Assembly (NCBI GenBank): GCA_003695905.1
Contig: RFGS01000095.1
Location: 1 to 46,395, forward strand
Length of the DNA stretch: 46,395 bases
Direction of reading: 5' to 3'
Source of the DNA: Zetaproteobacteria bacterium
GTDB lineage: Bacteria > Pseudomonadota > Zetaproteobacteria > Mariprofundales > Mariprofundaceae
Shown here: in pieces, positions 8,981-12,096 of the stretch
Layout of the letters: each line of letters starts with the position of its first letter
Position numbering within the stretch: position 1 is the first letter of the stretch
Notes under the pieces: model-generated
What the model saw: only the letters and a program-made list of their open reading frames with translations
The model's database searches: none
Told to the model about the DNA's origin: nothing
Translations under genes and position numbers: made by a program

Positions 8981-9526
8981 TCAGTGTCTGTCGCGGCTCA
9001 GTTCATTGCGGTCCGTATGCACAAACCTGCGGCCATAAACCTCGATGATCGTGGTTTCCGCATAGGAGAGGCGGTCACCACCCACCTCGATCCAGTGCTC
9101 GAAACGGCATGTCCGGGCATGTTCATGCATGAATGGAGACTGGACGATACCCCATTCACCATTGCCTGCCGCCACCTGCAGGCGAACCCCATCTTCCGTA
9201 TTCTCGACATGTCCGCCGGCCAGCAGGCATACGCCGCGCGGAATCACCAGCGATTGCATGATCCTTTGGCGTTCGGCATCCCACATCCAGTAGCCGGATT
9301 CATCATGAAAAACCTTTCCATCGGACAACCTGCTGACCCGCTGACGGTATTGCACGGCAGCCAATGTTTGATGCCCCGCATTGGTCACATCCCCAATGGC
9401 GCAAAACTCGATCGTCTCCCTGTAGGGGTTATGCACTTCCCCAGCCGGTTCGGGAGCCACATCCAAGCCCGCGTCGCCTTCCCAGCGACCGATCAACAGC
9501 TCCAGTGGGCCATAATCCGTTGTCAT
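8981..9526 (-). CDS. Nitrobindin/THAP4-like heme-binding beta-barrel (FABP-like) domain protein
   Basis: LLIGRWEGDAGLD (GxWxG-type motif) near N-terminus, beta-rich, C-terminal LSYAETTIIEVYGRRFVHTDRNELSRD. Confidence 0.65.
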   Translation of the reverse strand: MTTDYGPLELLIGRWEGDAGLDVAPEPAGEVHNPYRETIEFCAIGDVTNAGHQTLAAVQYRQRVSRLSDGKVFHDESGYWMWDAERQRIMQSLVIPRGVCLLAGGHVENTEDGVRLQVAAGNGEWGIVQSPFMHEHARTCRFEHWIEVGGDRLSYAETTIIEVYGRRFVHTDRNELSRDRH

Positions 9527-9624: not shown

Positions 9625-9648
9625 AAAAAAGGCCCCTGTCGGGGCCTT
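9625..9648 (-). terminator. Rho-independent terminator downstream of rplS
   Basis: On minus strand GGCCCC-GACA-GGGGCC followed by TTTTTTG, 22 nt past the rplS stop. Confidence 0.85.
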
Positions 9649-9669
9649 CCTGCAAACGGATCAATCCGA

Positions 9670-10038
9670 TCAGAAGCGGCGTTCCCGGATACGGGCTGCC
9701 TTGCCGCGCAGCTGCCGGAGATAGTAGAGCTTGGCTCTACGCACCCGACCACGGCGGACGAGCTTGATGCTTTCCAGCATCGGCGAATGCAGCGGAAAAA
9801 TGCGCTCCACGCCCACACCATTAGAGATCTTGCGCACGGTGAACGTGCTTGAGATTCCATTGTTATGGCGGGCAATGACCACACCTTCGAAAGCCTGCAG
9901 ACGCTCTCTCTTTTCGAGCCCCTTCTTCGTCTCCTTGTAATCCACGACGCGAACGTTCACGCGAACGGTATCGCCTTCGCGAAATGCCGGAATGTCCTCG
10001 CGCAGCTGATCCCTCGTGATATCATCCAATGCACGCAT
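9670..10038 (-). CDS. rplS: 50S ribosomal protein L19
   Basis: [74 protein letters not shown]; start trimmed to [11 protein letters not shown]. Confidence 0.98.
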
Positions 10039-10042
10039 TGCC

Positions 10043-10600
10043 TTATGCCTCCAAACTCGATGCATCCCTGCTTGCCAGGCGGTCCAAATAAATCGCCAAG
10101 GCCGCCCGGACGGAAAGGTGGCGAACCATACCCTCACCTTCGATGGGTGACAACCATCCATTTGGTTCTGGAAGGGATTCGGCATCCAGGCCATGACCAG
10201 TGCCAAACACGATCAGATGCCGTCCAGTCATTCCAGCCAGTGCCGATGGCTGAACCGTGCTATCCACAGGAGGGCGCGCCGAAGTGTACCAGAGCCGATA
10301 GCCGCACTCTTGGCGCAACACATCCAGATCGCGAACCAGATGCACCTGCTCAAGAGCTTTGCCTCGAGAAGGATTCCGCTTGGCGCCCTCGCCGCGCGTC
10401 CAATAAGCCAGCATCTCGCGCACCATGGCGTGCATGCCCTCGGACGGATGTACGATGTAGACGGGACGAATACCGAAGAACGCACAGCTTCTTGCAAAAT
10501 CATGTACATCGATGGGCGTAATGGCCGTGGCTGTGGTCTTGCCGAAACGATCCAGCACAGGCCAGTGCACAAGGGCGGCCGCAATGCTATCAGTCTTCAT
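10043..10600 (-). CDS. Predicted SAM-dependent RNA methyltransferase, PF09936-like (SPOUT-type)
   Basis: [73 protein letters not shown]...[26 protein letters not shown] match the family pattern recalled from memory. Confidence 0.87.
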
Positions 10601-11258
10601 GACGCTGCCTTGTTCGCGAGTGGGCCTGTTCTCTTCGCCATGCCTCAATGGCCTTGTGATTACCGCTGAGCAGCACGTCGGGAACCCGGTGTCCCTCAAA
10701 TTCAGCAGGCCTCGTATAATGCGGCCAGTCCAGCAATCCCTCATGCCCGAAAGAATCCTGCTCGGCTGATTCATGGCTGCCAAGCGCCCCGGGCAAGAGA
10801 CGGATCACGGCATCGATGATGCACAATGCAGCAGGCTCACCACCGGAGAGCACGAAATCCCCAACGGAGATCTGATCATCGACATAATGGCAGATGCGCT
10901 CGTCAAAACCTTCATAGCGGCCACACAGCAATGTAATGCCCGGCCAACCGCTCATTTCGCGCGCCTCATTCTGGGTGAAGCGTCTGCCCGCAGGCGTGAG
11001 CATGATGACACGCGTATCCGGCTGCTGTTTCCTTGCATGGCGAATGGCGGCCACAACAGGCTCCGGCTTCATGACCATGCCAGGACCTCCACCATACGGT
11101 GCATCATCCACCTTGCGATGCCTGTCACGCGCGAAGTCCCGGATCTGAATGGCCTCAAAAATCGCAAGCCCCGCGTCAAGGGCCCGCTTCGGAATCGAGC
11201 AGTTCAAGGGAGAGGCAAAGAACTCCGGAAACAGCGTCAATACCTGGATGTGAAACAT
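10590..11258 (-). CDS. trmD: tRNA (guanine(37)-N1)-methyltransferase
   Basis: [55 protein letters not shown]; start trimmed to MFHIQ. Confidence 0.97.
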
Positions 11259-11767
11259 GCTTCCATTCCAGGCGGCAGGCAGACCTCGATGCGCTTTGCC
11301 GACAGATCCACTTTCCCGATAATCTGCTGAGTAAACGGGATCATCCATTCACCCTGCTCGCCAGCATCCGGCGGTGTGCGCACAATCAGAATGTCCTGAG
11401 CGCCATATTCCTCCAGACGTACGACCTTACCCAGAAGGCCTCGCTTGGCATCGGCAACGCTGCAGCCAATAAGGTCGCACCACAGATATTCATCATTATC
11501 GACCGGAACATCCTCACGGGAAACCCAGATCTTCCAGCCGCGCAAAGCTTCGGCATCCTCGACGGTATCAATGCCCGATAGGCAGGCCAGAATCCTTTTT
11601 CCATGCTGCCAGCAGCGAACAACATGGAAGCGCCGACACGCATGGGTGTTCTTGCCAATCCACCAATAAGAATACCCGGCGATGCCGATGGCAGGCCGGG
11701 TATGGGAATAGACTTGAATGACTCCATTCAGCCCGTGTGTGCCGGTCACCTGACCGACCTCGAGCAT
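11237..11767 (-). CDS. rimM: 16S rRNA processing protein RimM
   Basis: [64 protein letters not shown]. Confidence 0.95.
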
Positions 11768-11771
11768 GACG

Positions 11772-12017
11772 TCAGGCTGTTTCAGAGGCCTTCTTGATCA
11801 GGCTGGCCACACGGTCACTTGCCTGAGCACCCAGATCAAGCCAGTGCTTCGTCCTCTCAAGATCGATCTTGATGACCTCGGGATCCCTACACGGATCGAA
11901 ATAGCCAAGCTTTTCAATGAACGCGCCATCCCGACGCTTGCGCGAATCCATGACCACAATGGAATAGAAAGGACGCTTCTTGCGGCCGCCTCGCTGAAGG
12001 CGAATCACGGTTGCCAT
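11772..12017 (-). CDS. rpsP: 30S ribosomal protein S16
   Basis: [42 protein letters not shown]. Confidence 0.98.
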
Positions 12018-12096
12018 ATGTTCAGTACCTCCGGAAATTCAGGCGGCGCACTATAAAGACGATGAGGGCATCGGGCAAGTCGCGGATGGACATTCA

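Follow-up and report, generated by a model that had tools for sequence, protein, structure and literature searches.

Promoters inside operon genes are known from E. coli, e.g. trp P2 in trpD and the rpoD promoter inside dnaG. The Tm1570 proteins (PF09936 Methyltrn_RNA_4, COG4752, 'SpoU family 5') are SPOUT RNA methyltransferases whose genes occur separate from, adjacent to or overlapping with trmD, or are fused to it (PMC11187310). They are predicted tRNA 2'-O-methyltransferases, and none has proven activity; their substrate is not established, in agreement with the initial annotation of the DNA studied here (PMC11187310). With tRNA-Leu(CAG), the Tm1570 domain isolated from the C. nitroreducens fusion showed activity close to background (PMC11187310). 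For ribose 2'-O-methyltransferases a conserved arginine and a conserved serine are expected (PMC1829167).

Gene X and its neighbourhood

The stretch of DNA analysed as a whole (46,395 nucleotides, hereafter the window) carries one gene of this family, called X, in the gene order ffh - rpsP - rimM - trmD - X - rplS (ffh named by eye). The features of this cluster are:

11772..12017, minus strand: rpsP, ribosomal protein S16 (Pfam)
11237..11767, minus strand: rimM (Pfam/NCBIfam)
10590..11258, minus strand: trmD, tRNA m1G37 methyltransferase (TIGR00088, 282 bits; start placed from the family match)
10043..10600, minus strand: X, PF09936/Tm1570-type SPOUT RNA methyltransferase gene, ATG start, 185 aa (ORF and profile match)
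10048..10052, minus strand: GGAGG, probable rplS ribosome-binding site, within the final codons of X (by eye)
9670..10038, minus strand: rplS, ribosomal protein L19 (Pfam/NCBIfam)
about 9627..9650, minus strand: terminator-like GC-rich hairpin with T-run 3' of rplS (sequence)

The true start of trmD is probably at 11258, because the family match starts only at residue 33. X had been described, without its strand, as a predicted SPOUT gene between trmD and rplS coding for 185 aa with PF09936-like motifs, and the HMM search bears this out over the full length (E 9.3e-44, 149.9 bits with a cut-off of 22.6; residues 6-176 correspond to profile positions 2-181 of 182). The sequence also shows the 11-nt overlap with trmD, the 4-nt gap between the stop of X and rplS and, 3' of the latter, the terminator; the overlap resembles that of T. 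maritima (PMC11187310). X is the only PF09936 match in the 1.46-Mb assembly, and it matches no other profile, neither PF00588 nor any NCBIfam model, the TrmJ family TIGR00050 included (Pfam/NCBIfam).

Among proteins of solved structure, sequence comparison relates X only to Tm1570 of T. maritima (3dcm) and to the corresponding domain in the TrmD-Tm1570 fusion of C. nitroreducens (8ri0, 8b1n). The AlphaFold2 model of X (pLDDT 90) was compared by Foldseek. Tm1570 structures are its best folds (TMq 0.85-0.87, E 8e-17 and 2e-17), followed by TrmH, TrmJ and RlmB, and the modelled SPOUT fold is closest to 3dcm/8b1n. X equals the described family (structures 3dcm and 8ri0 and, in 8b1n, the C-terminal half) in full-length match and fold, and it shares the Tm1570 motifs DVHDxAR, GTGxG[LF] and HLSVR. 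It is an ordinary member of PF09936 (Tm1570/COG4752). The initial annotation had named it the best candidate in the window for an undescribed function; family, structures, trmD adjacency, overlap and fusion are, however, already published. Across 43 homologues, most of which share 49-63% identity with X, 33 columns are invariant, including R37 and S163, which by alignment with Tm1570 would be the published Arg and Ser residues.

The host had been taken for a gammaproteobacterium but is a member of the Mariprofundaceae (Zetaproteobacteria), and in this class of iron-oxidising bacteria X is routine. The closest relative found (80% identity) is in a Mariprofundaceae MAG, and X was present in 54 of 78 Zetaproteobacteria genomes, a lower bound, since at least one genome scored as lacking the gene (G083) has its contig broken off within X. 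All 54 positives among the 399 genomes sampled are Zetaproteobacteria; with 0 of about 321 other Pseudomonadota carrying X, a gammaproteobacterial insertion is ruled out. X is therefore a normal gene of the class, with several probable losses. Plasmid carriage was rejected as well: the sole match is a Fusobacterium record filed as plasmid (NZ_CP084075.1, L154, Fusobacterium vincentii), which has the size of a chromosome (2.1 Mb), bears rsmA, rimM, trmD and polC (by eye) and looks chromosomal.

Within the class, rplS directly follows X in 51 of 51 genomes with sufficient sequence. trmD was found at most 1.5 kb upstream of X in only 8 of 47. The gene immediately upstream of X varies. It encodes a small ASCH-domain-like protein (by eye) in part of genus g4 (L007, L025, L026, L030), while other g4 members (L024, L029, L031, L141) have the order trmL - pgsA-like - X - rplS, so that two ribose methyltransferase genes lie close together. 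In several g10 genomes (L021, L022, L023, L027, L038) this position is taken by a gene for a membrane protein of rhomboid-like appearance (by eye), and in G068 a rhomboid-like gene is placed between trmD and X. Downstream, the window contains a THAP4-like (nitrobindin-type) heme-binding gene (8981-9526) between rplS and glyA, which recurs in G003 but was not noticed in the remaining relatives used for comparison.

A putative rplS promoter within X

The region adjoining and overlapping the third catalytic motif of X contains a sequence resembling a sigma70-type promoter, which would serve rplS. A second candidate of the same type precedes rpsP:

10153-10117, minus strand: putative rplS promoter TTGTCA-17-TATGGT-TCGCCACC, inside X, codons 150-162
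10148..10153, minus strand: -35 hexamer TTGTCA, X codons Leu150-Ser151
10131..10147, minus strand: 17-nt spacer, third codon positions vary freely (53-gene codon comparison)
10125..10130, minus strand: -10 hexamer TATGGT, X codons Gly157-Met158-Val159
10117..10124, minus strand: GC-rich discriminator TCGCCACC, X codons Val159-Arg160-His161-Leu162
12042..12078, minus strand: putative rpsP promoter TTGCCC-17-TATAGT-GCGCCGCC (pattern match)

RNA polymerase would initiate at the embedded site, with the transcription start expected at about 10118. The two hexamers show 9 of 12 matches to the E. coli consensus, which is moderate. The -35 is weaker in genus g5 (TTGCGG/TTGCGA), and G025 and G010 have a deviant -10 (TAGCGT, TAGTAT).

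The codons forming these boxes are the least variable in X. In a comparison of 53 X genes Leu150 was TTG in 53/53, Gly157 GGT in 52/53, Arg160 CGC in 51/53, His161 CAC in 52/52, Leu162 CTT in 53/53 and, slightly upstream, Asn147 AAT in 50/50. Mean third-position entropy was 0.33 bits in the -35 block and 0.40 in the -10/discriminator block, whereas the spacer averaged 1.41 and the codons directly downstream 1.38. Genomes without X retain a similar element before rplS, in which a -35 of TTG type is followed at 16-17 nt by TAnnnT and then by a discriminator of the form [GT]CGCC. This includes the groups in which X was apparently lost (part of g9, g14, g2 and f3), and in G055, G078 and G080 the retained promoter sits in a recognisable decayed 3' end of X. 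Such fragments represent a natural experiment parting selection at the DNA level from selection at the protein level.

A weight matrix was trained on five non-coding rplS promoters from X-less genomes, and candidates were scored within 800 bp on both strands. The embedded site came first in 53 of 53 X genes, with a mean of 24.4 bits vs 8.4 for the best other site; these values include related genomes that are not independent, and some of the X-less promoters probably derive from X itself. When synonymous codons were redrawn, the observed score was reached at P <0.01 in 49 of the 53 genes (median P 0.002). The high synonymous variation elsewhere in X argues that kinship alone would not account for the matrix result. 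These data show a constraint on the element at the DNA level, beyond that on the protein.

Promoters of this type are not confined to rplS. In 12 Zetaproteobacteria genomes the pattern TTGH-N18/19-TANNNTKCGCCRCC gave 92 occurrences, vs 2 for the reversed control. Among 30 loci inspected, the identifiable downstream genes include those for 16S rRNA, rpsL (S12), rpsO (S15), rpmB (L28), rplS, dksA, ndk and metK, with no gene assigned or a non-ribosomal gene at roughly one third. The pattern also precedes rpsP (S16) in the window, and rpsT (S20) was found with a related stricter pattern. The rplS promoter would thus belong to a class that Zetaproteobacteria use for dksA and for genes of rRNA and ribosomal proteins. 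It shares sigma70 hexamers and a GC-rich discriminator with the ppGpp/DksA-regulated rRNA and ribosomal-protein promoters of the E. coli type, a likeness drawn here from sequence, and it may be under stringent (ppGpp/DksA) control.

Some loci carry three to four tandem copies with about 100-bp spacing (L169; L181 in G005:C4; G066:C1:352232-352493; G009:C89:771-1097). The copies in G005 precede 16S rRNA, which suggests multiple tandem rrn promoters in Zetaproteobacteria. In G009 a SAM_alpha riboswitch match (L171, 1435-1510) coincides with one occurrence of the pattern, upstream of a putative transporter. The rpsT promoter at L151 (G000:C10:7855) touches the end of an upstream acyl-CoA-dehydrogenase-like gene and is a second case of a ribosomal promoter meeting a coding end.

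Taken together, we assign a probability of roughly 0.85 to the reading that the 3' end of X does double duty, encoding part of a Tm1570-type SPOUT enzyme and carrying a sigma70-type promoter for rplS in codons 150-162. As in the internal promoters of E. coli, the promoter of a downstream gene would lie within an upstream coding sequence. The element in X differs from these in being of ribosomal type, in lying over a catalytic motif, in its class-wide occurrence and in outliving its host gene. What is new here is the putative rplS promoter inside X, kept across the class even where X has decayed; none of the papers searched mentions an internal promoter in connection with rplS and trmD.

The embedded promoter may bind X to rplS and persist as a fragment once the methyltransferase gene decays. 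The initial annotation had regarded the cluster as one shared unit ending after rplS. Adjacency and terminator stand, but as X seemingly contains a separate promoter for rplS, it is too simple to regard the cluster as a single transcription unit. Gene neighbourhood is widely used for guesses on function, and the most conserved pair in this case, X-rplS (51/51), need not mean a shared function, since the buried promoter would be a sufficient cause. The linkage alone thus says little on the role of X and is not usable for a ribosomal one, which weakens the earlier argument from the ribosomal-protein neighbours.

Substrate of X

Judged from family, fold and the Arg/Ser motifs, the X protein would act as a dimer, with SAM bound by the knotted C-terminal half, and its target would be a ribose 2'-OH, most likely of a tRNA. 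A function as tRNA ribose 2'-O-methyltransferase is the one we favour. The SPOUT fold is shared with TrmJ (tRNA Nm32), TrmH, TrmL and RlmB, the SpoU-type 2'-O-methyltransferases of PF00588 (Foldseek E about 1e-5 to 1e-7). Unlike these enzymes, X has no PF00588 match and its motif 3 reads HLSVR, not SLNxS; furthermore it lacks the N-terminal domain of RlmB and the C-terminal extension of TrmJ.

X may, as a tentative possibility, replace TrmJ and form Cm32/Um32 in the anticodon loop of tRNAs, close to where the neighbouring TrmD acts. TrmJ was found above the family cut-off in 0 of the 78 Zetaproteobacteria but at E <1e-20 in about 307 of the 321 other Pseudomonadota (hand count), the reverse of the distribution of X. 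The weak TrmJ matches in the class look like cross-hits. Most class genomes have two SpoU-type proteins, and those examined are RlmB and TrmL. TrmJ is also missing above the cut-off from the Fusobacterium vincentii chromosome that carries trmD-X, and outside the Tm1570 structures those of TrmJ rank among the folds closest to X. However, TrmH and RlmB are about as close in fold, the extension missing from X is required by TrmJ (PMC9508554), and the complementarity inside the phylum amounts to no more than a single evolutionary contrast. Zetaproteobacteria that lost X have not regained TrmJ, and a swap of X for TrmJ inside the class is ruled out by their lack of both. The complementary distribution offers a concrete test for the substrate of the whole SPOUT family.

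Alternatively X might methylate the ribose of 16S or 23S rRNA, matching its ribosomal-protein neighbours. The invariable linkage to rplS and the similarity of the fold to RlmB would fit, but the linkage has another sufficient cause in the embedded promoter, and the fusion partner of the domain in other phyla, TrmD, acts on tRNA (PMC11187310, PMC1829167). We regard an rRNA substrate as unlikely. Fusion or adjacency to trmD in several phyla remains a better clue than the rplS linkage and points to tRNA.

The promoter may also have left traces in the enzyme. Zetaproteobacterial X proteins read VRHLSVR (with IR in one of them) and in most cases LSPI at the positions where the three outgroup sequences, from T. 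maritima, C. nitroreducens and F. vincentii, show [FY]NHLSVR and L[EK]PI, and this difference coincides with the promoter. A combined reading would be that the promoter, written into the catalytic motif region, reshaped the motif, with Arg in place of Asn before HLSVR and Ser in place of Glu/Lys in LSPI, and itself preserves the gene order, and that X is the missing Nm32 enzyme both in Zetaproteobacteria and in other bearers of Tm1570. We consider this conjunction as a whole doubtful.

Other readings of the conserved codons

The frozen codons might reflect a constraint on the protein or on codon usage, or an RNA regulatory element, rather than a promoter. The element does overlap in part with the conserved HLSVR motif, and the promoter reading is derived from sequence. 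But S163, V164 and R165, equally conserved residues of the same motif, are encoded by synonymously varying codons in the 53 X genes, and no Rfam family scored above threshold in the promoter region. Moreover, the element outlasts dead X genes and recurs before 16S rRNA and other ribosomal genes. This explanation is very improbable compared to a promoter embedded in X.

Finally, that X is a dying gene kept chiefly for the promoter within it, as its repeated apparent loss with retention of the promoter might suggest, is hardly credible given the 33 invariant columns and the varied synonymous sites elsewhere in the gene, which indicate that the protein is conserved wherever it is present.
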